DNA of 64,000 nucleotides from Desulfobotulus mexicanus (lineage in GTDB: Bacteria > Desulfobacterota > Desulfobacteria > Desulfobacterales > ASO4-4). The position numbers and the translations under genes are program-made. Below are positions 24,161-37,249 of the stretch, piece after piece. The stretch is taken from the NCBI RefSeq assembly GCF_006175995.1, contig NZ_VDMB01000004.1:62001-126000 (forward strand). Direction: 5' to 3'. The notes beneath the pieces are model-generated. The model ran no database searches and was not told the DNA's origin. It saw only the letters and a list, made by a program, of their open reading frames with translations. Within the stretch, counting starts at the first letter, position 1; each line of letters opens with the position of its first letter.

Positions 24161-25222
24161 TCAAATCAGATTTCCTGGGGGATTGGAAACCAGAAGTTTA
24201 ATCATCAGTTCTCTTTTGCAAGCTGGCCTCACTGCTATAACGGTATCCTTACCATCTGGAAGTATGATAGATTCAGAAGCTTCTTCCATATTAACGTAAC
24301 AGGCTTCCAAAGGACCTGCCTCAAAAATATCTCCTATAAAATGAGCATGAAGAAGAAGGTCTCTCCATGAAGCATCTTTATACACGCTTTCAATACCAGG
24401 CGATTGATCTTCCATATAATTCAGCCAATTCTGAAGTGGATCAATTTCTTTATAGTCAGAAATAAGCTCCTCTTCAGAATGCAACTCAGGCAGAGCAGAT
24501 TCTATGGCTATGGAAAGATCATCTTCTTCCTGATCCATTTCATCTTTAAGACGCATGGCTTCCATAAGGATGGCCTGTAAATCAGAGTGGATGGTCTGGT
24601 TGATTGCTTTACATTGATTTTCTATCATAAGGGAAACAGGCTGCCATGCCAGTACCTTGTATGCTGCAGAAATACCATCAATGGCCACTTCCCCAGGGAT
24701 CCTTGAATGAATAATTTCTCCATCTTTAAAAAATAAAATCCCATATCCATTACTGGGAGGATGCATCACACGAAGCGTACAGGTCTTTTGCTCCATTTCA
24801 ATCATCTGTGCAAAGGTATCAAGGGATGCACCATTGAGGGAACCACCGTCTTGAATACGGCGAAACATATTTTCAAATGCAGCAAGAAAGTCTTTGCTCT
24901 GAAGTGGTTTTTCAAGAAAATCTTCAGCCCCTTTTCGCAACAGTATTTCACGGGTTTTAGGTTTGCCATGGGCAGAAATAACAATGGAAGGTATTTCAGG
25001 AAATTCTGCCTGGATTGTGTCCAGCAGGCTAAAACCATCAAGGTCAGGTAAAATAAGTTCCGTAATGAGAATATTAACAGCACTGTTCTTCAGGATCTCG
25101 ATGGCTTCCATACCAGTACCAACGATCATGCATTTAAATCTCTCACCATGATTTTCTATCCAGCCAGCCATACGTTTTGCAATTTCAGTATCCGGGTCTG
25201 CTATTAAAACATGCAGATGCAT
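24161..25222 (-). CDS. receiver-PATAN (DUF4388-like) protein with Glu at the phospho-acceptor site
   Basis: About 353 residues. The receiver domain (1-120) has acidic residues D9 and D11, S83 and K105 (FLEKP) in canonical places, but the phospho-acceptor aspartate is Glu, E55, in LITELILPDLDG. From about 120-235 there is a PATAN/DUF4388-like module (GILFFKDGEIIHSRIPGEVAIDGISAAYKVLAW), then an acidic linker and an alpha/beta C-terminal domain (285-350) resembling roadblock-like folds. Glu often mimics phospho-Asp, so the domain may be locked on. The ATG at 25222 follows GGGAGGT by 4 nt. Confidence 0.75.
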   Translation of the reverse strand: MHLHVLIADPDTEIAKRMAGWIENHGERFKCMIVGTGMEAIEILKNSAVNILITELILPDLDGFSLLDTIQAEFPEIPSIVISAHGKPKTREILLRKGAEDFLEKPLQSKDFLAAFENMFRRIQDGGSLNGASLDTFAQMIEMEQKTCTLRVMHPPSNGYGILFFKDGEIIHSRIPGEVAIDGISAAYKVLAWQPVSLMIENQCKAINQTIHSDLQAILMEAMRLKDEMDQEEDDLSIAIESALPELHSEEELISDYKEIDPLQNWLNYMEDQSPGIESVYKDASWRDLLLHAHFIGDIFEAGPLEACYVNMEEASESIILPDGKDTVIAVRPACKRELMIKLLVSNPPGNLI

Positions 25223-25440
25223 TGAACCTCCCACAGCACATTCCAGCAATATTTGTGAATGCCTGCATTGTTGTAGTAAAAAGTCTAAGGAAGTAATTTC
25301 AGTGAGACAATACCAATAAGTTTGTTACTGATATTCAAGACCCTGGATTTTTTAAAGTAATTAAAACGATTATCCCGCTAAAATTTTATGCATGGTCCTG
25401 AAAATTATCTGTACTGTTCGTAAAAGAAAAAAAGATACTA

Positions 25441-26421
25441 CTACTCAGGGAAACGCACCTCCAGAGTTGCAAGATATTCCCGGTATTTTTCCTGCCAGTC
25501 ATGGAAAACAGAATGATATTGTTTTTCTACATTCGATTCTTTCATTATTTCAAAAAGAACACGGGTAACACCTTCAATCAATTCACGATTTCCTGCATTA
25601 CTCTCAAAGAAAAGAGACTGGTCTTTATAACTTAGTTCTGCTGCAAAGGGGTCAAGAAAATAATAGATATCAGCCCATTTTATACACATTTTTCTGAATA
25701 GAATCTGAAAATCTGTTTTGTTTCTTTTCATACCATGCACAATGTTTTCCGTGTGCCTAACAAGTTCTTCCAGCAGGGCAAGGGTTTTATTTGATTCTGT
25801 TGTTTGGGGCTGAGACTCTTTTTTCTTTTTAACCTCACCCAACAGCACCTCTATTTTTAAAGAACCTTTAAATTTTTCCATAAAATCAGGCAGATCTTCA
25901 GGACCCAGCCATGGTGCCCTGTCTCCGGGAAGACGGAAACCATAAATCCGTTTATTCTGAAAAAAAACCCATCCAATCTGTCTCTTCTTATCACCCTTTA
26001 TTCGAAAATAACCGGTATCCGGACGACTTTCATTTTCTTTATCAAGAACATCAATCAACTTGTCAAATCTAAGGCTAACAGGTTTAGACATGGGGATGGC
26101 ATGAATCATGGATATCCAGTATTCCAAGGCTTTTGCATCAATTCCATAAACTGAAACCCTGTACTTTTGGACAGCAATACTGGCTTTTAAAAGCTCTACA
26201 GCAGCAGGGCCCGTTGATCTGCCATTCCCATCGGAAAATACAGAATCCATAATTTTCTTTTCATCAAAGAACAAAAGGGCTTCCGCAGAAGTTGAGCGGA
26301 AGTGCAAACAACCGCACCCTGCCTCACCCTGATAATGTTCGATGAGACGTTTAAGGGAGATATAATAGCTATTCATCCCCGTAACCAGGGCCGTATCATT
26401 GGGAAAAAGAAATTCAGCCAT
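25441..26421 (-). CDS. PATAN/DUF4388-like protein of unknown function
   Basis: 326 residues, soluble. The N-terminal half looks like two alpha/beta units of PATAN type: CLHFRSTSAEALLFFDEKKIMDSVF (about 37-62) and GYFRIKGDKKRQIGWVFFQNKRIYGFRLPG (about 136-165). A helical second half (210-326) has no motif I know. The assignment is by pattern, supported by clear PATAN-type proteins elsewhere in the same clusters. The SD is weak (GGGGG 11 nt upstream). Confidence 0.55.
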   Translation of the reverse strand: MAEFLFPNDTALVTGMNSYYISLKRLIEHYQGEAGCGCLHFRSTSAEALLFFDEKKIMDSVFSDGNGRSTGPAAVELLKASIAVQKYRVSVYGIDAKALEYWISMIHAIPMSKPVSLRFDKLIDVLDKENESRPDTGYFRIKGDKKRQIGWVFFQNKRIYGFRLPGDRAPWLGPEDLPDFMEKFKGSLKIEVLLGEVKKKKESQPQTTESNKTLALLEELVRHTENIVHGMKRNKTDFQILFRKMCIKWADIYYFLDPFAAELSYKDQSLFFESNAGNRELIEGVTRVLFEIMKESNVEKQYHSVFHDWQEKYREYLATLEVRFPE

Positions 26422-26454
26422 AAAAATAAAAACCCCCGGTTTGATTTTTTAAGG

Positions 26455-27630
26455 CTAACGCCTTCTTCTGAGACGTTCAATGGAAAGTTTCAAGCTGTCC
26501 TGCATACGGGAAATAGCATCGGCAAGGTTACCTATTTCATCCTTGGAGCTAACATAAATCTGCATATCCAGCTCACCGACACTTATTCGGTCAGCGGCAT
26601 CCGTGAGGTACTTAATGCTGCGTGTAATCCGATATCCATAGATGGATATGGAAAGACCGATGACAATCAGGGAAAGAATCAGAATACCAAAGGTAATGTT
26701 TCTGGTCTGCGTGGCCATGAACCGGGCTTCTGTCTCCAGTAGTCTTACCGGCTCTGTAAAGTCGTCGATGTAGGCCGTTGCCATAACGTGGTAGCGGGTT
26801 CCTTCTACAGGACTTATAACAGCAAACTTCTGGCGGAGCTGACCATCCCGCTCTACCCATGTATAATAGCCTCTGGCTTCCCGTCCACTGGCAGCAACCT
26901 CAATAATTCTGCGAAACTCAGGGAAATACTGAGGACCAAGAGTCTGCTGAAGTACACCAAGGATTTGAACACCTATGAGCCTGGCATCGGGATGAGCCCA
27001 GATTCTAAAAGCCTGATCTGTCTCATCAATACCAGGACGTTCAAATAAAACTGTGTATCCGGAATTAGCGACCCTCTGCACAGCAATCCGGCTGAACTCA
27101 GGATCATAATTAAAATCCATTCTTCCAAGTTCAGGATGGCTGCGAAGATAAATATTTGTTTGTAAGCTTACGGATCTGGCTTTTTCAGCAATAATCTCTT
27201 CGGCCATGCTTTGCACAACCCTAGTACTTTCACCTGTGATGCGACTTGAAAGTTCATTTAACTGATAATGGGAAAAAAGTCCTGAAGCCGTCATGAGCAG
27301 AAGGGGAATAAAAAGAAAAAGAAAGAACATCTTTGCCCGGAGTCCAAGTCCCTGATGTTGTCCCTTTTTTTCTTTCTTCTTTTCTTCAAACTTTTTCTTT
27401 TGTCTATTCTCTTTAGGGGGGGGTGGTGCTGATGCTTTTTCAGGTCCTTCAACAAGCTTTTTTTCTTCGGGCTTAACAGGCTCTGCTTCCAGCTGTTCTC
27501 TGGTAATACGCATCACATGACCGCACTCCCGGCAACGGGTTCTGGCTTCATCTCCGGAAAGCTTTTCTTTAAGTTTCTCAGGGTCAAGATGATAAATTTT
27601 ACCACACTCTTCGCAAATCAGCGTTGTCAT
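26455..27630 (-). CDS. zinc-ribbon, Cache-like sensor, HAMP membrane protein without output domain
   Basis: 391 residues. A cytosolic MJ0042-type zinc ribbon (C6, C9, C33, C36: CEECG and CRECGH) is followed by a Pro/Lys-rich linker, a first membrane segment (about 102-120), a periplasmic Cache-like sensor domain (about 121-315, with GYTVLFERPG and GYYTWVERDGQLRQKFAVISPV), a second membrane segment (about 318-336) and a HAMP domain ending at the stop (about 337-388). No kinase, methyl-accepting or cyclase domain follows. The signal must leave by protein contact, possibly through the N-terminal zinc ribbon. SD GGAGGAG. Confidence 0.78.
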   Translation of the reverse strand: MTTLICEECGKIYHLDPEKLKEKLSGDEARTRCRECGHVMRITREQLEAEPVKPEEKKLVEGPEKASAPPPPKENRQKKKFEEKKKEKKGQHQGLGLRAKMFFLFLFIPLLLMTASGLFSHYQLNELSSRITGESTRVVQSMAEEIIAEKARSVSLQTNIYLRSHPELGRMDFNYDPEFSRIAVQRVANSGYTVLFERPGIDETDQAFRIWAHPDARLIGVQILGVLQQTLGPQYFPEFRRIIEVAASGREARGYYTWVERDGQLRQKFAVISPVEGTRYHVMATAYIDDFTEPVRLLETEARFMATQTRNITFGILILSLIVIGLSISIYGYRITRSIKYLTDAADRISVGELDMQIYVSSKDEIGNLADAISRMQDSLKLSIERLRRRR

Positions 27631-27650
27631 AGATTTCTCCTCCGGATGCC

Positions 27651-28193
27651 TTAATGCGACATGTCTTTTAGAAACTGAATCATTGACTGTTGAAAAGAAA
27701 CCCGTTTTTCTTCCCTGGGGATTTGTTTTGCTACCATATTAACAAGTTCCGGTGCACGATCCATAGGAAAGCTGTTCCATGATTCATTCATGAGTTCAAT
27801 CTCATCCTCAATAATCACTGAAGCAATGGGACCAATGGCAATGGATAGATTTTCTTCCAGAAAATCCATAAAAATTGAGGAACCTGTATCTTTTTCGTCT
27901 TTAGTGAGCTCTATAACTTCTGAATCCAGAAGACGTTGAGCCACACTAAGGGAAATATCTGTAGAGATACCCGCTTGAGAAGCAATATCTGAAAGATTAC
28001 GTTTACCATCGATTAGTGAAAAAACCTTGAGCATATCCCGATCCATGGAAATCTCACGGTTATAACCGTCATCTTTCTGCCTGAAAATGATTGTAGCAGG
28101 GTTCCCTGAAAAGGTCATTTTCTCTGTTCTGGACCCCCGCCACAGTAATCCTTGTTTTTGATGATCCGGTGGATTTCCTGAAAAGGTTGCCAT
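27651..28193 (-). CDS. winged-helix-like cluster A protein of unknown function
   Basis: 180 residues. A central winged-helix-like segment (about 48-98, RDMLKVFSLIDGKRNLSDIASQAGISTDISLSVAQRLL read in parts) is followed by a helical C-terminal region (LSIAIGPIASVIIEDEIE..., REEKRVSFQQSM) like a small domain found at the C-terminus of some deltaproteobacterial signalling proteins (DUF8082-like; by memory of the pattern only). The first 33 residues contain a near-repeat, TFSGNPPD and TFSGNPAT, also visible in the DNA. SD GAGGG supports the ATG at 28193; an internal ATG at 28118 begins the second repeat. Confidence 0.55.
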   Translation of the reverse strand: MATFSGNPPDHQKQGLLWRGSRTEKMTFSGNPATIIFRQKDDGYNREISMDRDMLKVFSLIDGKRNLSDIASQAGISTDISLSVAQRLLDSEVIELTKDEKDTGSSIFMDFLEENLSIAIGPIASVIIEDEIELMNESWNSFPMDRAPELVNMVAKQIPREEKRVSFQQSMIQFLKDMSH

Positions 28194-28296
28194 GCTTATC
28201 CCTCATTTTAAAGCGTCATTTATTCTCACTGCACATTTTTACTTTTTTCAACATCTTTTGTTTTCTCGAATATTTTCTTTAAAATAGTATTATGGC

Positions 28297-28962
28297 TTAT
28301 TTGGACTGAATACTGCGAATCTCTTCCATCAGCTCATTGCGCAGCACTGCAAACTCTTTGCGGACAATCTCACGTATAAAGACAACAAGCTCTGTGTTTT
28401 TATTTGAAGATTTTTTACTGGCGGCCGCTGATTTACCCGTAATCTGTTTACGGAAAACCTGAAACCGCTCATAGGTCTGGCTGAAATAAATATTTTTTTC
28501 CTTGTCAGACAAGCTATCCTGCATGTCCACAAGAAGACCAAGACCTGCCTGTATTTCCTGAAGTATTTTCAATGTATCCTGATGGGCATGAACCTTGTGG
28601 CGCTTCAGATAAAGACCAATGGATTCCAACATTTTTGTAAAATTGAAAAAAAAAGCATCTTTTTTATTTGTAGTCTGAAGGCGTTGAATTTCAGTCAGAT
28701 ATTTTGATATAACACTGTCATCAATTTCCCATTCCATAGAAAGCAAAAGAGCATTGAGCCCCCTAAGGGTCTCTCCTCCCGGCTGCTGTGACTCTGTTGC
28801 TTTAAAATCATTGGGTTTGGAGCTTTGCTTTTTGTCTCCCTTAGCAAAAGGCTTTTCATCTGCTTGTATTTTAGGTTCTTCAACGTCAAGACTGTCCTCA
28901 TCAAAGAGATCTTCAAGACGTTGGTCCAATGCCATTGAAAGGGCATCCTTTTTATCCGTCAC
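28297..28962 (-). CDS. cluster A protein of unknown function, partner of the GTPase by position
   Basis: 221 residues. An acidic disordered N-terminus (1-65) is followed by helices (GETLRGLNALLLSMEWEIDD, SKYLTEIQRLQTT), and a Lys/Ser-rich linker before a last helix (TELVVFIREIVRKEF). No family is recognised. The GTG start begins right after the GTPase stop and has SD GGAGG, so translation of the two is coupled; a role as GTPase effector is inference from this only. Confidence 0.6.
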   Translation of the reverse strand: MTDKKDALSMALDQRLEDLFDEDSLDVEEPKIQADEKPFAKGDKKQSSKPNDFKATESQQPGGETLRGLNALLLSMEWEIDDSVISKYLTEIQRLQTTNKKDAFFFNFTKMLESIGLYLKRHKVHAHQDTLKILQEIQAGLGLLVDMQDSLSDKEKNIYFSQTYERFQVFRKQITGKSAAASKKSSNKNTELVVFIREIVRKEFAVLRNELMEEIRSIQSK

Positions 28963-29574
28963 TTATTTTTCCTCCAGCTTCTTTTTGAGGGATCCAATCG
29001 TGAGGGAGATAATCTTTTTCATGGTCAGGGCAACATTGTCTCCGGTGATGGCGCTGGCTTCCAGATAAGGGGCATTCAGCTTTGCATTTAAATCATGCTG
29101 CATGGTCTCCAGAGGAAGAAGAGCAATATTGTGTGCTGCAAGATCCCTTTTATTATATTGAAATACGAGGGGAATACGGGATAAATCTTTATTAAAAGAA
29201 CGAAGATTTTCTTCAAGGTTCTGTAGAGAACGGATATTCATTTCACGTCTGAGTCCCATAGAATCTGCTACAAAAACAATACCATCTACTCCCCTTAGCA
29301 CAAGCTTACGGGTTGCATTATATTTCACCTGTCCAGGAACGGTATAAAACTGAATTTTTATATCATAACCATTGATACTGCCGATATCGAGTGGAAGAAA
29401 GTCAAAAAAGAGAGTTCGGTCACCATAGGTTTTTACAGTTACCATCTCTGCCTTGATACGGGATTTGAATTTTTGATTAATATATTCAAGGTTGGTTGTT
29501 TTTCCACCTCGTCCAGGTCCGTAATAAACTATTTTTACCTGAACTTCTTTTTTTTTGGGATTAATCAGCGCCAA
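28963..29574 (-). CDS. MglA-like Ras-family GTPase (cluster A)
   Basis: 203 residues. P-loop GPGRGGKT (20-27), switch-region TYGDRTLFFDFLPL, IQFYTVPGQVKYNATRKLVLRGVDGIVFVADS, and the NKRDL nucleotide-specificity motif all match MglA, the prokaryotic small GTPase that sets cell polarity and controls type IV pili and gliding in Myxococcus. The start is a TTG with SD GGAGG 6 nt upstream. The roadblock protein just upstream is the expected GTPase-activating partner. What it polarises here is unknown; the ATPase gene in the same run is a candidate effector. Confidence 0.9.
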   Translation of the reverse strand: MALINPKKKEVQVKIVYYGPGRGGKTTNLEYINQKFKSRIKAEMVTVKTYGDRTLFFDFLPLDIGSINGYDIKIQFYTVPGQVKYNATRKLVLRGVDGIVFVADSMGLRREMNIRSLQNLEENLRSFNKDLSRIPLVFQYNKRDLAAHNIALLPLETMQHDLNAKLNAPYLEASAITGDNVALTMKKIISLTIGSLKKKLEEK

Positions 29575-29592
29575 AGCAAGCCTCCGATTTTT

Positions 29593-29988
29593 TTATCCGA
29601 AGAGAGATTCGATTTTTCTTACAGCCTCACTGACTTTCAAACGAAGAAAACCCAGGGAAACTTCCTTTCCAAAAATCGATAGTAAAAGAAGGTCATCGGT
29701 TACTTTACTGAAGTGGATACTATCATTCTCACCTTTATGAAAAAGAAGGGAAAACTCCTGTTCTCCAATGAGGTTTGCCATCGCACTGACAGCACCGAAA
29801 TTACCCGCTGCCAGGGCAGCAAGGGAGTAAACATCGTGATGGGTATTACCATTATCAAGATTGATAATAACATTGCCTGCAAGATCAAGAAGAATAACGC
29901 TGATAACGCCAAGCTCGATCAATTCTTCTTCCAGAACTTTTTCTATGTTTTCAATTTGCTGCCTGTCTAAATCCAGAGTAAACTCCAT
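29593..29988 (-). CDS. roadblock/LC7 protein, MglB-like
   Basis: 131 residues of roadblock/LC7 fold: helix LDRQQIENIEKVLEEELIEL, strand VISVILLDLAGNVIINLDNG, central helix SLAALAAGNFGAVSAMANLIGE and strands DSIHFSKVTDDLLLLSIFG. Dimers of such proteins act as GTPase-activating or scaffolding partners of MglA. It is the first gene of cluster A and lies 18 bp before the GTPase gene. SD AAGGGA. Confidence 0.85.
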   Translation of the reverse strand: MEFTLDLDRQQIENIEKVLEEELIELGVISVILLDLAGNVIINLDNGNTHHDVYSLAALAAGNFGAVSAMANLIGEQEFSLLFHKGENDSIHFSKVTDDLLLLSIFGKEVSLGFLRLKVSEAVRKIESLFG

Positions 29989-30457: not shown

Positions 30458-31675
30458 ATGGTGACGGCAATGGTACTTAAAAAAATTTATGGTTCGGAAA
30501 AAAAATATTTTTCAGTTCTTCTGTACTTTTTAGCATTTTTCATCATATCAGCCCCCGCATGGTCAGAAGAAAAAAAATCTCTTCTTAGCTTAGGGGTAAG
30601 CCTTCCCCTGACAGGCCAGGATAGTACACAGGCTGTCAAATGGCTTCATGGCATGGAAGCTGCAATTTCAGTCGTTAATCATGAAGGTGGAATCCACCAG
30701 AAACAATTACGCATTATTACAATTGATGATGGTGGAGACGCAGTTGTTCGCCATAACAACCTTATTCAACTGACAGAAAATGAAGATATTTTCGGCCTCA
30801 TAGCCGCCTTCGGTTATAATGGAACAAAAGATACACTGCGTATAGCCGAAAAAAATTCAACACTTTTTTTTGGCTCCAATACAAGCATGAAATCCTCTGG
30901 TCCCCATGTCAAATCTAATATCTTCACCTTAAGACCCGATGCAGATCTGGAAATGGATCTGCTTGTTAGTCGTTTTATCCAGGATACGGGTAAGAGGCGT
31001 ATTTCTGTTGTATACATTGAAAATGAAAAAGGGATTGAATATATAAACGGGGTACGCAAAGCACTGGAAAAAAGACAGCAGGAACTGCTGCTTGCTGTCC
31101 CTGTTTCAATGGAAAACCCAAAAATAACATCTGCCATCGACAATATTTTGGTCAGCAGCCCTGATGCCATAATCATTGCAGCGGATCTTAATATAACAAA
31201 TGATTTTATAAAAGAAATCAGACAAAACCGCAGTGATATCAATCTTATTGCTGTCGGCCACACAGATCCCCTTGAGCTGTCAGAAAAACTCATGAACACA
31301 GGGTTGGGTGTTGTTATCAGCCAGGCCGTACCCTTTCCTTTTTACAGAAGAATCCCTATTGTAAACGCCTATGCTGCCGCTGTAGAAGCCTTCAAAGATC
31401 AGGACTCTTCAATTGAAATGACCTTCCCAGGCTTTGAAGCCTACTTGAATTTACAGGCCTTTATCTATATTCTAAAACAAAGCCCTTCTTTAGATAAAGC
31501 ATCCTTTATATATACGGCGCAACAACAGTTTGAAACTGATCTGGGCGGTTTTCGTTTTTCATTTTCTAAAAATAGTCATACTGGTTCCAATCAGATTTTT
31601 CTGACACAAATTGCTCCTGGTGGCTTTGTAACCCCTATCCGAAATTTCTCTGAGGTCTATGAATATCATCCCTGA
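30458..31675 (+). CDS. periplasmic ligand-binding protein, branched-chain-amino-acid (LivK) type
   Basis: 405 residues with a signal peptide ending near ISAPAWSEE (about 36). The mature part is a two-lobe type I periplasmic binding protein: SLGVSLPLTGQDS, HGMEAAISVVNHEGGIHQKQLRII, FGLIAAFGYNGTKDTLRIAEK and the second-lobe RRISVVYIENEKGIEYINGVRKALEKR. The typical job is ligand capture for an ABC importer, but no permease or ATPase genes are adjacent, so it could be a sensor-type binding protein. SD AAGGT. Monocistronic between its own promoter and a terminator. Confidence 0.85.
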   Translation: MVTAMVLKKIYGSEKKYFSVLLYFLAFFIISAPAWSEEKKSLLSLGVSLPLTGQDSTQAVKWLHGMEAAISVVNHEGGIHQKQLRIITIDDGGDAVVRHNNLIQLTENEDIFGLIAAFGYNGTKDTLRIAEKNSTLFFGSNTSMKSSGPHVKSNIFTLRPDADLEMDLLVSRFIQDTGKRRISVVYIENEKGIEYINGVRKALEKRQQELLLAVPVSMENPKITSAIDNILVSSPDAIIIAADLNITNDFIKEIRQNRSDINLIAVGHTDPLELSEKLMNTGLGVVISQAVPFPFYRRIPIVNAYAAAVEAFKDQDSSIEMTFPGFEAYLNLQAFIYILKQSPSLDKASFIYTAQQQFETDLGGFRFSFSKNSHTGSNQIFLTQIAPGGFVTPIRNFSEVYEYHP

Positions 31676-31795: not shown

Positions 31796-31826
31796 CGAAA
31801 ACAGGGGCTTTAAGCCCCTGTTTTTT
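31796..31826. terminator. bidirectional Rho-independent terminator
   Basis: ACAGGGGCTT (31801-31810) and AAGCCCCTGT (31812-31821) form a GC-rich stem with a minimal loop, flanked by A on the left and six T on the right. It serves the plus-strand binding-protein gene and, less strongly, the minus-strand pseudocaspase gene that converge here. Confidence 0.8.
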
Positions 31827-31848: not shown

Positions 31849-33924
31849 TTACGGTCTGATCACAAGCCTGAAACCAATATTGGCATAAGCTGCTGAGGGA
31901 GGCATACTGTAACGATTGGCAACACGGATAGAATCCATATCCGTATCCCATCCCCCTCCACGAAGAATACGTCTTTCTCCGGAATCAGGACCGGATGGGT
32001 TCTGAATAGGAATATTGTTTTCCAGATATTTTCCATACCAGTCCCTGCACCATTCCCACATGTTACCATGCATGTCCAGCAATCCCCAGGCATTGGGTTT
32101 CAGTGAGCCTGCGGCCATTGGTTTTTGACGAAAAACACCAACAGCACAACCTGCCCGAAAAGAATTTGCCGCAAAATTGGCCTGATCGTCGGAAAGACAA
32201 TTTCCATATGCATAGGTAGCGCTGCTTCCCGCCCTTGCTGCATACTCCCATTCTGCTTCTGTGGGGAGGTCGTAATACAGCCCTTCTTTTTCACGAAGCC
32301 ATACTATGTAGTTTTGAACATCATTATAAGATACTGCACTGACAGGAAGTTCATCTGATATTTTATACCCGGGATTCTGCCAATTATAATGACGGTCCTG
32401 AACCCATCGAAAACCTCTCTCCAGGGCATAGGCACCAGCACTGGTTTCAGCCTCACTTTTATATCCTGTATCCTCAACAAAACTTTTCCATTGCCCCACA
32501 GTCACTTCATGGACCTGCATCATAAAAGGTTTTGTTATTTCAACTAAAATCTTTTTTTCATCTGTATTTCTACGAACTTCATTTTCAGGGCTTCCCATTT
32601 CAAAAACTCCGGCTTCTATTGCAAGAAAACGCATAGCCAAGCTGTTTTCATAGGATGACTTAAGCTTTAAATCAATTTTTTCCTGGGTTATTTCACCCGC
32701 TTTAATATGAAGATCATGAATGGCAGACTGGTAAAGGGGAGCTTCTATACGAAGACTGTAATTTCCCGGGGCCAGTGCCATGCCCGGGCTATAGGATAAT
32801 TTTTGATCCTCAAACTGGATGGACGCATTTTCCGGAAAAACCTGCAACATAAGACGTCCATTTTCAGGTCTTCGGATAGCAAGGATAAGGTCAAGCCCCC
32901 TTTCTTCACCAGGTAAAAGTCGAAATTCTTCAGAAAAATTTTCATATCCGGCAGCCCTTGCTTCCACCCTATACCTTCCTGCTTCCAGAGCAAGTCCCTG
33001 TAAGGGTGCTATGCCCTGCTCCTGCCCGTTGATCCGGATGATTGTCCCATCAGCATTGGAAGCTATGCTAAGCTGTGCTTTTGACTCTGCTTTCACAAGA
33101 ACAGGTTCCGGGATGCTTTTTTCTTTAACAGGAAGTGTAAATACAAAATCACCGGAAAAATCTTTTCCTGTCTTCAAGCTCCGGTATTCAAAAGTAGCAC
33201 TGCTTTCCTGTGTCTTTGAAAGAACTTCTGAAAACAACTGAACGCCGGTCCACTCCTTACCCATAGAAGATAAACTCTGCATTAGTGCAGATACCAGTAA
33301 GCCATTTTTAATCCCGGGCTCTGGGGGATCTGTCTCGTTTCCTTTTTTATAGAGAACAGCGTGGGAAAAGCCCTGCTGGTTTTCAGAACTTTTTTGAATA
33401 GCTTTTTCTTTGACAGGAAAACCGCTGGCCGCATCCGGAAAAGGGGCATCAGAAATCAAAAGCAGCCTTCTTGCTTCTGTATTACGCAGAATTTTCTGAA
33501 TACTGCGAACTTCAAGGTAGCTTTGCAAATCACCTTTGATAGCATCAGATCCCAGCCACCATCCATAACCATAAAGAGTTTCCACCTCAGCTGCCCCGGA
33601 AAAGTATATAAGCAGAGTATCGTCCGAACCCGCACTTGCACTCAGATTTTGGATGGCCTTTAGGATGGCCGCCCTGTCCGCTGCCTTGCCAGAAAGCAAG
33701 GTGACCTGAAAATCCATATTTGATTTCAGAAATCCGGCAAGTACCCTTGCATCCTCAGCAGCTGTTGCAGGAAAAGGTATGGTTTTATCCTGATATGCAT
33801 CTATCCCTATGAACAGAGCTTTGTTCTGTCCAGCAGCTGCAGCAATACCATGGTTAACCATCCATAAGCATAAAAATATCAGTATGCCTGAAATGATGGA
33901 ACTGTAACTTGGCTTTGATTTCAT
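31849..33924 (-). CDS. secreted pseudocaspase - PEGA repeats - FGE-sulfatase-fold protein
   Basis: 691 residues. A signal peptide (about 1-31) is followed by a caspase/peptidase C14-like domain (34-265), two PEGA-type beta domains (about 280-430) and a formylglycine-generating-enzyme-like domain (about 440-691: FEMGSPENE, PTEAEWEYAARAG, LLDMHGNMWEWCRDWYG, RRILRGGGWD, NIGFRLV). Both caspase catalytic residues are gone: the His of FSGHG is Ala (FSGAA, A111) and the Cys of DACFS is Pro (DAPFP, P161). The FGE-like part lacks the paired active-site cysteines. So it is probably a periplasmic binding or scaffold protein. It ends the surface-protein run 37.1 to 31.8 kb. Confidence 0.85.
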   Translation of the reverse strand: MKSKPSYSSIISGILIFLCLWMVNHGIAAAAGQNKALFIGIDAYQDKTIPFPATAAEDARVLAGFLKSNMDFQVTLLSGKAADRAAILKAIQNLSASAGSDDTLLIYFSGAAEVETLYGYGWWLGSDAIKGDLQSYLEVRSIQKILRNTEARRLLLISDAPFPDAASGFPVKEKAIQKSSENQQGFSHAVLYKKGNETDPPEPGIKNGLLVSALMQSLSSMGKEWTGVQLFSEVLSKTQESSATFEYRSLKTGKDFSGDFVFTLPVKEKSIPEPVLVKAESKAQLSIASNADGTIIRINGQEQGIAPLQGLALEAGRYRVEARAAGYENFSEEFRLLPGEERGLDLILAIRRPENGRLMLQVFPENASIQFEDQKLSYSPGMALAPGNYSLRIEAPLYQSAIHDLHIKAGEITQEKIDLKLKSSYENSLAMRFLAIEAGVFEMGSPENEVRRNTDEKKILVEITKPFMMQVHEVTVGQWKSFVEDTGYKSEAETSAGAYALERGFRWVQDRHYNWQNPGYKISDELPVSAVSYNDVQNYIVWLREKEGLYYDLPTEAEWEYAARAGSSATYAYGNCLSDDQANFAANSFRAGCAVGVFRQKPMAAGSLKPNAWGLLDMHGNMWEWCRDWYGKYLENNIPIQNPSGPDSGERRILRGGGWDTDMDSIRVANRYSMPPSAAYANIGFRLVIRP

Positions 33925-34059: not shown

Positions 34060-35232
34060 CTATTCCGCTGTAAAGTGGGGATTAGCATCCATAACAGACC
34101 GGTTTTCCCCCCCGGTTATGATGGAATTTTTTCCACCGGCTCTGTTTTTACGTCCACCCACAGTTGCAGAAAAATCACCTTCTGCACGATTTCCTTCACC
34201 GCCAATGGCAGAAGATGCCCTCCCGGAAACAATATTATCTGTTCCTGAAACCGCAGCACCATAGGAGCCTGTTACCTTATGTCCTCTTCCGGAAATAAGG
34301 TTCCCATAAGATGTGCAGGTATGACCTTCTCCAAGGACTAGGTTATGGGAACCTGAAACTTTTGCAGGATCTGTGTAACCTATTATCAGATTGCCATTGC
34401 CATTGTTTGATGCCGTTTGACCTTCTCCATTTGTGAGAACAAGATTAATACCCTGAAACTCAATATTCTGCCCCTTTCTCTGAACACCCTCAAGGATACG
34501 GGTCAGACGTGCCACCTGAGCTTCCAGAGCAGCTATCCGCTGCTGCAACTGGGCATTTTCTCCATCAGGCATTGCAATTCCTCCAATAAGCAGAGGTTTT
34601 ACAAGGGTAATATCTGCTTTGGCTTCAAGGGCTGCCTGAAGCTCGGAGTGGCGAACCAGGGAGGGATCTATGCGCTCTACGGGAATGATACCCTGAATAT
34701 CAGCTATATTGTGGGTATGATTTTTATCTGCCTTTTCGGACAGCATCTGGTTCCATCTTCTCTGGGTAAAAACAGGGACGCAGTCAGAAACACCCATTTC
34801 TCTAAAATACCCACATATTTCAGCATCATCTATGCGTTCATAATCTGCTATTTTCTCAGGTCCTACAAAAAAAAGATAAGGAAAATTTCTCGGCATTTCA
34901 AGGCTTGTGTCGCTTCGCTCAAAAAGGACCATGGCAATGGCAGGAGTATTAGGAAGAATCGTAGCCATATATGAAACAGCAACATATTTATCACTGAGGT
35001 CATACAACTCACGGATACCTTCCATGCGAACATTTCTGTTACGTCTGGCCTGACGCTGTACAATCTGCTCATTGGCCTGATTTAGAACCTGAGCTGCGTC
35101 CTCTGTATTTTTAAGCTGAAGGCGCATGGCTGTTTCTTTTTCTGTCATCACATTGGCTGCCAGAGCAGGCAGGTTGCAAAGTGTCCATGACAGCAATATA
35201 AAACCTGCAATTTTAAAAAAGGCCCTGTTCAT
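34060..35232 (-). CDS. secreted coiled-coil protein with YadA-head-like repeats
   Basis: 390 residues with a signal peptide (about 1-25). The middle has a tail-fibre-like turn DKNHTHNIADIQGIIP (about 176-191), a coiled coil (QLQQRIAALEAQVARLTRIL, about 228-247), then about 110 residues of short repeats of YadA/haemagglutinin head type (SGSHNLVLGEG, YGNLISGRG, YGAAVSGTD, SSAIGGEGN, SATVGGRKN, SIITGGENR). Such repeats form trimeric beta-roll heads. There is no C-terminal YadA membrane anchor, so export or attachment differs from classical trimeric autotransporters. It lies between a porin and the pseudocaspase gene. Confidence 0.75.
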   Translation of the reverse strand: MNRAFFKIAGFILLSWTLCNLPALAANVMTEKETAMRLQLKNTEDAAQVLNQANEQIVQRQARRNRNVRMEGIRELYDLSDKYVAVSYMATILPNTPAIAMVLFERSDTSLEMPRNFPYLFFVGPEKIADYERIDDAEICGYFREMGVSDCVPVFTQRRWNQMLSEKADKNHTHNIADIQGIIPVERIDPSLVRHSELQAALEAKADITLVKPLLIGGIAMPDGENAQLQQRIAALEAQVARLTRILEGVQRKGQNIEFQGINLVLTNGEGQTASNNGNGNLIIGYTDPAKVSGSHNLVLGEGHTCTSYGNLISGRGHKVTGSYGAAVSGTDNIVSGRASSAIGGEGNRAEGDFSATVGGRKNRAGGKNSIITGGENRSVMDANPHFTAE

Positions 35233-35326: not shown

Positions 35327-36655
35327 TCAGAAACTTACCGTCATTTTAGCAGCAAAGAGAAACCAGTTTTCAGAGGTATTGAGATTACCATCATCCCCGG
35401 AATTGATGTCTTTCATGAGAATGGCCGCACCGTTCATGGCGTGGCCTTCCAGCTTGAACACCCAGTTAGGGGTAAGGTCAAAGCGGGCTGTCATGGCAAT
35501 ATCCTTCAGCCAGGCATCATGATCTTTATAACCGGCATCTTTACGCGGATTATCTACTCCTGGGACATTTATAAAACTTGGATGTTGTTCTATGATATTC
35601 AGTTTTCCGTTCCTGTCATCCTTGTCCGCATAGTACTCAGAATATGAAATGCCCAGCTCCATCCAGTCCGTAAAACGGTAGGCTATGGCAGCGTAATAGC
35701 CTTCGGTGTTCAGGGTTTTAGTACCAGCTGCGTTAATGAAATTTGCAAATGGAGAATCTCCCTTTGCATGGTTGGTAAACTCATAACGGTTACCCATATA
35801 TTCCGCTGCAAAGGTGAATGGTCCTCTAAGATATTCCAAAGAAGCAGTATATGCCCTGGAAACAGTATTTGCTTTAACGTTCGCAGAACCTGGAAAAGGT
35901 AAAAAAGCAGCTGCTGTAGCTTCTGTTTCCATATCAAATTCCACAGCCCATGCCGTGGTGCTGAGACGCAGACCATTAAGGGGGGTATACCATACAAGGC
36001 CACCGGCCATGGAATGTTTGGTATGGGTGGATTGGGGGTCAGATAGGACGCCAGCAAGTCTGGACTGATCTGTAAGGGATGTCACAACACCGCCATCCAA
36101 TGCAAATTCAGTTTCCCCTCCCTGAAACTGGTAGGAAAGGGTACCGGCATTGCCCATGTAGAGGTCACCGTATATCTCAGCACCACTGATGGCAGATACT
36201 GTATCCCTCCAGGCTTCGTTATAGACACTCTGGGGAAGGAAAATACTGTTTCTGAGCATATCAATATCACGGGTGGTATTGTAAAGCCCATGAACCATTT
36301 TCATTTTACCAACACGGATACCCATCCAGTCTCTCCAGCGGTAATCAGCAAAGCCCCAGTCAATTTCAGGCTCTCCCTCACCAAATTCCCCGAGATTTCT
36401 CGCAAAAATCTGAAGTCCCACACGTAAGTTGTCGCTGACCTGGCTGCTGATATTCACCCCAAATTCGTTGAATCGGGCACTGCCATCCTCGGTTTTGGCA
36501 AAAAAGTTATTATTGTCACTTGCCAGATATCCTTGGGAAATGAAACCATGAACAGTAACACCACCATAAAGGTCATCACCAAATTCCACAGCCATTGCCG
36601 GTAACCCCATACAGAGCAGGCCCAGACCCAGCATCAGTCCTTTTAAGCTTTTCAT
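35327..36655 (-). CDS. outer-membrane porin-like beta-barrel protein
   Basis: 442 residues. A signal peptide ends in GLPAMA (about 22). The mature chain is rich in alternating aromatic/polar strands (LRVGLQIFARNLGEFG, WMGIRVGKMKMVHGLYNT, FTDWMELGISYSEYYADKD) and ends with the outer-membrane signature terminating in Phe (AKMTVSF). It looks like the deltaproteobacterial/gammaproteobacterial 'porin' family often found near phosphate-like binding proteins. SD AAGGAG. The upstream PstS-like gene is 49 bp away, so they are likely cotranscribed. Confidence 0.8.
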   Translation of the reverse strand: MKSLKGLMLGLGLLCMGLPAMAVEFGDDLYGGVTVHGFISQGYLASDNNNFFAKTEDGSARFNEFGVNISSQVSDNLRVGLQIFARNLGEFGEGEPEIDWGFADYRWRDWMGIRVGKMKMVHGLYNTTRDIDMLRNSIFLPQSVYNEAWRDTVSAISGAEIYGDLYMGNAGTLSYQFQGGETEFALDGGVVTSLTDQSRLAGVLSDPQSTHTKHSMAGGLVWYTPLNGLRLSTTAWAVEFDMETEATAAAFLPFPGSANVKANTVSRAYTASLEYLRGPFTFAAEYMGNRYEFTNHAKGDSPFANFINAAGTKTLNTEGYYAAIAYRFTDWMELGISYSEYYADKDDRNGKLNIIEQHPSFINVPGVDNPRKDAGYKDHDAWLKDIAMTARFDLTPNWVFKLEGHAMNGAAILMKDINSGDDGNLNTSENWFLFAAKMTVSF

Positions 36656-36704: not shown

Positions 36705-37130
36705 CTATGGCGTGATACCCAGAACCTTCACTTCATCTGTGATTGTCCCTTCCGGAACAAAACCCACAGCTCCCTGGGTGTTGGCTACATAGGTTACCAT
36801 ATCCGCAGGCCTGTTCATGGCAGGCGGCATCTGTCCCCGTCCCGTAAAAACCTGCCTTTTCCAGTGCTGATCAAACTGAGCAGAAGACATTTTTACATAA
36901 TCAGAAAGAAAACTGTCCATGGTTTCTCCCCTGAGAACAGCAAAATTAACACGGCTGCCATCCTCCCAGCGGCTCAGTTGTCCTTTGTAGATACGTTCCA
37001 GATCACTCTTTGAAACGCTGGCCACCGGTACACCACGGTTGGCAATAATCAGAACATCCGCAAGGGCATGTCCCACAAGACCCGCTACCATAACAAGTAT
37101 AAGGGCCCCTAATTTTACATGCTTCATCAT
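36705..37130 (-). CDS. small PstS-like periplasmic binding-domain protein
   Basis: 141 residues with a signal peptide (about 1-24, ending GHALA). The mature part resembles one lobe of a phosphate-type binding protein: VSKSDLERIYKGQLSRWEDG, DSFLSDYVKMSSAQFDQHWKRQVFTG, and PADMVTYVANTQGAVGFVPEG. Full PstS proteins are about twice as long; single-lobe forms of this kind are common next to porins in marine and sulfate-reducing bacteria. It is the first gene of the surface-protein run; SD GGGAGAG. Confidence 0.8.
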   Translation of the reverse strand: MMKHVKLGALILVMVAGLVGHALADVLIIANRGVPVASVSKSDLERIYKGQLSRWEDGSRVNFAVLRGETMDSFLSDYVKMSSAQFDQHWKRQVFTGRGQMPPAMNRPADMVTYVANTQGAVGFVPEGTITDEVKVLGITP

Positions 37131-37212: not shown

Positions 37213-37238
37213 AAAAAAGGTGATCCTCAAGGATCACC
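37213..37238 (-). terminator. Rho-independent terminator of purC
   Basis: GGTGATCC (37219-37226) and GGATCACC (37231-37238) form an 8-bp stem with loop TCAA; on the minus strand six T follow. It is 12 bp past the purC stop. Confidence 0.85.
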
Positions 37239-37249
37239 CCTTGCTTTTT

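Follow-up and report, generated by a model that had tools for sequence, protein, structure and literature searches.

The window, a stretch of 64,000 nucleotides from Desulfobotulus mexicanus (assembly GCF_006175995.1, contig NZ_VDMB01000004.1, positions 62,001 to 126,000 of the forward strand), carries on its reverse strand a run of four genes that ends in a caspase homologue devoid of its catalytic residues. The run opens with a gene for a small PBP-like (PstS-like) protein (36705..37130, -), identified by weak PBP_like_2 and TIGR02136 matches and by conserved gene order, and continues with a gene for a porin-like outer-membrane barrel (35327..36655, -), supported by conserved order and, weakly, by Porin_O_P (20.7 bits, cut-off 20.9; the porin-like gene of locus L176 matches at 23 bits). 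The third gene, hereafter the partner (34060..35232, -), lies directly upstream of the dead caspase gene (31849..33924, -, stop codon included). Between purC (PF01259) and the run, a stem scan placed a terminator-like stem of 12 pairs (37215..37242); the scan reported 13 sites in the region versus 6.6 in shuffles. At the other end, a palindrome read directly from the sequence (AACAGGGGCTTTAAGCCCCTGTTTTTT, 31800..31826) separates the dead caspase gene from a convergent gene; it is absent from the output of the stem scan and is possibly a terminator shared by both genes. The convergent gene (30458-31675, +) encodes a LivK-like periplasmic binding protein (PF13458), homologues of which also adjoin the module in L135, L136, L138 and L152/L184. 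A further reverse-strand run (24161-29988, -) encodes, in turn, a Roadblock/LC7 protein, a Ras/MglA-like GTPase, an unknown protein, an HTH-like protein, a Cache-HAMP protein, another unknown protein and a DUF4388 response regulator. Much of this run also occurs near the module in genomes G001 and G002 (L135/L172, L136), G022 (L138/L251) and G479 (L152/L257), and it was not encountered in the parts of G011, G019, G049, G053 and Desulfoluna that were read near the module. A polarity-type GTPase may be linked to the surface module.

The dead caspase gene is intact, running uninterrupted from ATG to stop and encoding 691 amino acids, whose layout we drew from the open reading frame, Pfam and an AlphaFold model (ma1dcda06e2ec). 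Residues ~1-30 (33835..33924, -) were judged by eye to form a signal peptide (the model places a low-confidence helix at 8-25), and the protein is therefore probably exported. A caspase-fold domain (residues 31-266; 33127..33834, -) is followed by two PEGA repeats (residues ~283-420; 32665..33078, -), which PF08308 matches in two stretches, the better one covering residues 283-345; the limits of the second repeat were set by eye from the model strands, which span 283-418 at pLDDT >80. The remainder is an FGE-like (SUMF1-like) domain (residues 432-687; 31864..32631, -), matched by the FGE-sulfatase family PF03781 at 185 bits. The PEGA and FGE-like parts, which the first-pass annotation had read from the letters, are borne out by Pfam.

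That annotation had also proposed a caspase fold, and several searches converge on it. Peptidase_C14 (PF00656) gave no Pfam match to the window protein at E 1. Caspase homology is based instead on NCBIfam NF047832 (E 3.7e-6, a score far under that model's cut-off), on the PADLOC ‘caspase’ model (8.4e-12), on the Peptidase_C14 match of a homologue that likewise lacks the dyad (L139, 54 bits, cut-off 21.4) and on the AlphaFold model. Another dyad-less homologue (L138) is not matched by Peptidase_C14, and active relatives score 77-83 bits. The model superimposes on MALT1 (Z 17.9, 183 residues, 2.5 A) and on Arabidopsis metacaspase 4 (AtMC4, Z 17.6), with fold matches covering residues 28-266, although it is of moderate quality overall (mean pLDDT 63.5, pTM 0.44) and mostly below pLDDT 50 in stretches 163-205 and 241-281 of the caspase domain. 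By these computed comparisons, the predicted structure has the p20 alpha/beta caspase fold (clan CD, C14-like). An assignment to a defence system was discarded: of the two proteins scanned with PADLOC, the window protein hit the generic caspase model only and the partner hit nothing.

Both members of the His/Cys dyad are replaced, as the first reading had it. Alanine 111 (codon 33592..33594, -), after model strand 103-109, and proline 161 (codon 33442..33444, -), after strand 153-158, align opposite the GHG and SDSCYSG motifs of active relatives. Profile alignment with solved metacaspases places the His column well; for the Cys segment (SDSCHS) the match is in register but contributes a weak 2-3 bits of its own. 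The domain contains no cysteine at all and a single histidine, so that cysteine-protease chemistry is impossible and a dyad displaced to another site, the first outcome that could have overturned the annotation, is ruled out. Catalysis by serine was likewise rejected for the family: serine occupies the Cys position in 4 of 14 dead rows, but the window protein and its congeners have Pro, Pro and Val there. The aspartate two residues before the Cys position, presumably part of the S1 pocket as in metacaspases, is kept in 11 of the 14 dead rows. With A111 and P161 in place of the dyad, the protein is not an active orthocaspase; it answers to the description of pseudo-orthocaspases as p20 homologues with a substituted dyad (PMC6426788).

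The partner, a protein of 390 residues with a weak phage-tail-repeat match, comprises an N-terminal globular domain, a coiled coil, a YadA-like head (residues 293-388) and a terminal NPHF tail. In its model (mean pLDDT 67, pTM 0.39) the N-terminal domain is confident and is followed by a coiled-coil stretch and a beta-roll head; the head resembles that of UspA1 both by profile (1.4e-19) and by fold (Z 15.1); Foldseek alone returned no PDB match for the partner at E 0.001. No Pfam family for a C-terminal membrane anchor matched the partner at E 0.01, and the chain ends with the tail after the head. The partner is probably a coiled-coil trimer bearing a YadA-like head.

The association between partner and dead caspase extends well beyond the window. 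Genomes searched by profile numbered 395 for the phylum and 340 for the order, and up to 30 top-ranking loci from each search were read. All 29 partner matches, from 22 of the 340 genomes of the order, were inspected, and a linked pair was present in 14 of these 22, each time with the partner immediately upstream of the dead caspase. The order PBP-like, porin-like, partner, dead caspase was found in 12 of these 14, the run being cut by contig ends in the other two (L140, L147), and in all 8 named loci with the caspase among 79 loci fetched (L146 and L176 belong to the same genome, and the full run was read on L176). In D. alkaliphilus ASO4-4 the partner is 85% and the dead caspase 79% identical to that of the window. 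Two loci vary the run: in Desulfoluna spongiiphila (L145/L177) the porin-like gene lies in two overlapping frames (L145:7210-8554) and may be broken by a frameshift or misassembled, and in G053 a second porin-like gene comes first (L137:4697-11309), giving porin, PBP, porin, partner, dead caspase.

The partner also occurs without the dead caspase. At the remaining partner loci of the order, some of them cut by contig ends and some matching the head only, no caspase adjoins it. On L153 (3058-5418) the partner is followed by a gene for three lectin-like domains (3-keto-disaccharide hydrolase/laminin G type), and on three loci a HEAT-repeat protein is encoded just before it, with no caspase (L154:1675-3867, L149:6151-8649, L156:2519-4948); in place of the NPHF tail, the partners on these three loci share a conserved Cys-Phe-Ile ending. 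That the partner's neighbours are changeable, binding-type proteins is consistent with the dead caspase having a binding role, but does not prove it. The N[PK]HF tail itself terminates all 14 partners that adjoin a dead caspase and 3 of 10 unlinked relatives of the order with a readable end (L148, L155, L157), the other 7 having none; two of the three tailed and three of the seven tailless proteins come from genomes that also encode a linked pair.

Orthologues with an intact dyad were the other finding that could have undone the annotation, and none turned up among the linked homologues. Both catalytic residues are lost in the partner-linked caspases of all 14 genomes, in eight different combinations at the His and Cys positions: AP (2), AV (2), YS (2), SA (4), SS, KS, QA and RT. 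The caspase domain is nevertheless nearly full length and free of stops in each. On sequence evidence, therefore, the dead state is conserved in the linked family and the replacing residues are not. Among 58 related genomes, the full-length architecture recurred in members of the genus as well as in other families of the order. By contrast, the eight nearest relatives, some of which also have PEGA or FGE parts, keep His and Cys in YYAGHG and (S/A)DSC(Y/F)(S/A)G motifs, and no partner gene was seen on their loci, for which larger stretches were read, several of them on short contigs. Among unlinked rows of the tree described below, 44 of 46 retain both residues, 43 by alignment column and L001 by its own sequence, where GHG and DAC are present and misregistered in the columns; the exceptions are L012 (H/S) and L011 (N/P). 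These counts refer to the best loci, outside which lie many weaker caspase matches, and the presence of a partner was likewise judged within the loci read.

In a caspase tree of 60 of the 69 distinct rows (nine rows of <170 residues were left out), the 14 dead and 8 active rows form one starred 22-row clade (100/99), which was recovered when both dyad letters were masked in all 60 rows. Since the nearest relatives keep an intact dyad, its loss looks derived from active ancestors. The best tree, masked or not, splits the dead rows into two groups, and a single origin appears in 4% of bootstrap trees (10% dyad-masked), yet the AU test does not reject it (p 0.206; dyad-masked, p 0.159). The dyad was thus apparently lost once or twice within this clade, and the association between death and the partner would amount to one or two evolutionary events. 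The two exceptional unlinked caspases, L012 (L170:3355-5283, H/S) and L011 (L171:6156-8165, N/P), are PEGA-FGE proteins with altered dyads on a separate branch, so dyad loss also happened elsewhere; neither L170 nor L171 carries a partner gene. FGE-fused caspases may repeatedly lose catalysis.

The pattern of substitution bears on whether the dead domain still matters to the protein. By a simple Nei-Gojobori count, its dN/dS is 0.07-0.24 in six pairs, a seventh (the window with G002) being saturated, and this calculation indicates purifying selection on the sequence of the dead domain. In five Desulfoluna pairs, four of which have dS >1.5, the caspase domain (0.07-0.11) is near or below the FGE domain (0.10-0.14); between the window and D. 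alkaliphilus it stands at 0.24, against 0.09 for the FGE domain. Path lengths to ten outgroup rows were 2.29-3.61 (mean 2.84) for dead and 1.68-2.01 (mean 1.81) for active rows, with no overlap, and such acceleration, in all 14 dead rows relative to all 8 active ones, fits relaxed constraint as well as it fits a new role. It could accordingly be argued that the caspase domain is a fading remnant, a folded spacer in a protein whose function is carried by the PEGA and FGE-like domains. The faster evolution, the higher dN/dS than that of the FGE domain in Desulfobotulus, the inconstancy of the replacing residues and the low confidence of parts of the domain in the model all point this way, but an almost full-length domain without stops in all 14 genomes and the low ratios in Desulfoluna do not, and we regard this explanation as rather unlikely.

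The FGE-like domain raises a different question, namely whether it is itself an enzyme. Its assignment rests on sequence, the FGE part of the model being poor. When aligned with human FGE it has V668 opposite C341 and no cysteine at the place of C336, and it consequently does not qualify as a formylglycine-generating enzyme; the first-pass annotation was right that the active cysteines are missing. Their absence alone means little, because PvdO, the closest solved relative and also the best NCBIfam match, has no cysteines at the aligned places either. The domain could therefore be another enzyme, PvdO-like or EgtB-like, for which the dead caspase positions the substrate. The kinship to PvdO speaks for this, but the PvdO match reaches 120 bits against a cut-off of 500, the FGE cysteines are gone and no gene of pyoverdine-type biosynthesis stands among the nine neighbours scanned with Pfam, which leaves the idea improbable. 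Nor is the protein a PorK/GldK equivalog (NCBIfam GldK model TIGR03525, 85 bits against a cut-off of 350), and membership of the type IX secretion system was set aside, the GldK and GldJ models both scoring far under their cut-offs.

The annotation had further asked whether an active caspase is encoded elsewhere in the genome, and one is a candidate: a single other Peptidase_C14 match with GHG and DAC motifs (G000 C12:90111-90716), which also appears as L001 (628-2124) and matches the EACC1-associated caspase model at 52 bits against a cut-off of 140. As the window gene itself goes unseen by that Pfam model, further degenerate copies could do likewise; in this genome the family's own profile finds the window gene only. 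A dead caspase might pair with such an enzyme and damp it, akin to the action of cFLIP on caspase-8. The second caspase is, however, distant in the tree, lies on a different contig and has no obvious signal peptide by eye, so that the two proteins probably reside in different compartments, and we consider this kind of regulation very unlikely. C-lectin and FGE-like folds are the usual targets of diversity-generating retroelements, and the PDB matches of the FGE-like domain include Treponema denticola variable protein 1, which we take to be one such target, but there is no RVT_1 match at E 1 in the genome (assembly 98% complete), and a receptor diversified in this way can practically be dismissed.

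In light of these results, we lean towards the reading that the pseudo-orthocaspase is retained as a binding or assembly module, without catalysis, in a Desulfobacterota envelope system. A probably exported chain that joins a caspase p20 domain to two PEGA repeats and a cysteine-less FGE-like domain, and that is unable to cut, would act together with the PBP-like protein, the porin-like barrel and the YadA-head partner at the outer membrane or cell surface. Its former substrate cleft would hold a peptide without cleaving it, PEGA would contact envelope material and the FGE domain would provide a docking hub, by analogy with PorK. A structural role of this kind draws its main support from the linkage to the YadA-head protein, the porin-like barrel and the PBP-like protein, together with the PorK precedent. 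The proposal of a scaffold or receptor without protease activity, made from the letters of the gene alone, holds as regards the three contact-type modules, the absence of cysteine-protease chemistry and probable export; a role of the dead caspase as scaffold or receptor is plausible, and comparative genomics has strengthened it. More speculatively, the dead cleft might grip the partner's N[PK]HF tail, with the complex docked at the barrel through the FGE-like domain, which would make the protein a new kind of hub for adhesin assembly or display in Desulfobacterota. The distribution of the tail among linked and unlinked partners makes it a candidate ligand, with an older or different use equally possible, and we hold this particular arrangement to be a long shot worth stating.

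Neither pseudo-orthocaspases nor the use of an FGE fold as a docking hub, as in PorK, is new, and surveys have counted the former in bacteria while leaving their roles mostly open. In the portions of a 2019 survey considered here, pseudo-orthocaspases make up 8.6% of the set, 90% of them in Alphaproteobacteria or Cyanobacteria, with Tyr/Ser as the most prevalent variant pair and a suggested role in photosynthesis (PMC6426788). Like the window protein, those are bacterial caspase p20 homologues that lack the His/Cys dyad; relative to the set as described there, the present family differs in its occurrence in Desulfobacterota, its probable export, its eight residue pairs, its PEGA and FGE parts and its envelope gene run. 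In a 2012 survey, FGE-sulfatase accompanies 4.9% (33 of 671) of prokaryotic caspase homologues, including an FGE-fused caspase of Trichodesmium with a substituted dyad (PMC3501461). The joining of a caspase domain to FGE-sulfatase is common to these homologues and the window protein, but PEGA is never named in the main text of that survey, and the passages considered show no YadA-head/porin operon. Among the matches listed from open-licence PMC titles and abstract starts, none described a caspase-PEGA-FGE protein that shares an operon with a YadA-head protein and a porin. What appears to be new is a family in Desulfobacterota that combines many dyad replacements and a fusion to PEGA and FGE with a four-gene envelope run.

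Active PEGA-FGE orthocaspases of the order (L162, L163, L165) have the same domain order, belong to the same caspase clade and are 29-33% identical over the whole chain, but their YYAGHG and SDSCYSG motifs are intact and their loci carry no partner gene. As catalytic loss goes together with conserved neighbour genes, the purpose of the dead caspase becomes testable. The partner, for its part, has a head like those of the trimeric autotransporter adhesins UspA1, BoaA and AtaA in fold and sequence; unlike them, it shows no C-terminal anchor family, ends in an NPHF tail and is adjoined by a separate barrel gene. Finally, the PorKN structure, in the part of the report considered here, presents a cysteine-less FGE-like fold that serves the outer membrane as a docking hub (PMC12421860). 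PorK, GldK and GldJ of type IX secretion resemble the window protein in having an FGE-like fold without active cysteines, whereas no caspase or PEGA part is described for them in that portion of the report. The window protein, in which two reused enzyme folds, caspase and FGE, are joined in one chain, would accordingly offer a case outside Bacteroidota for comparison with the PorK docking hub.
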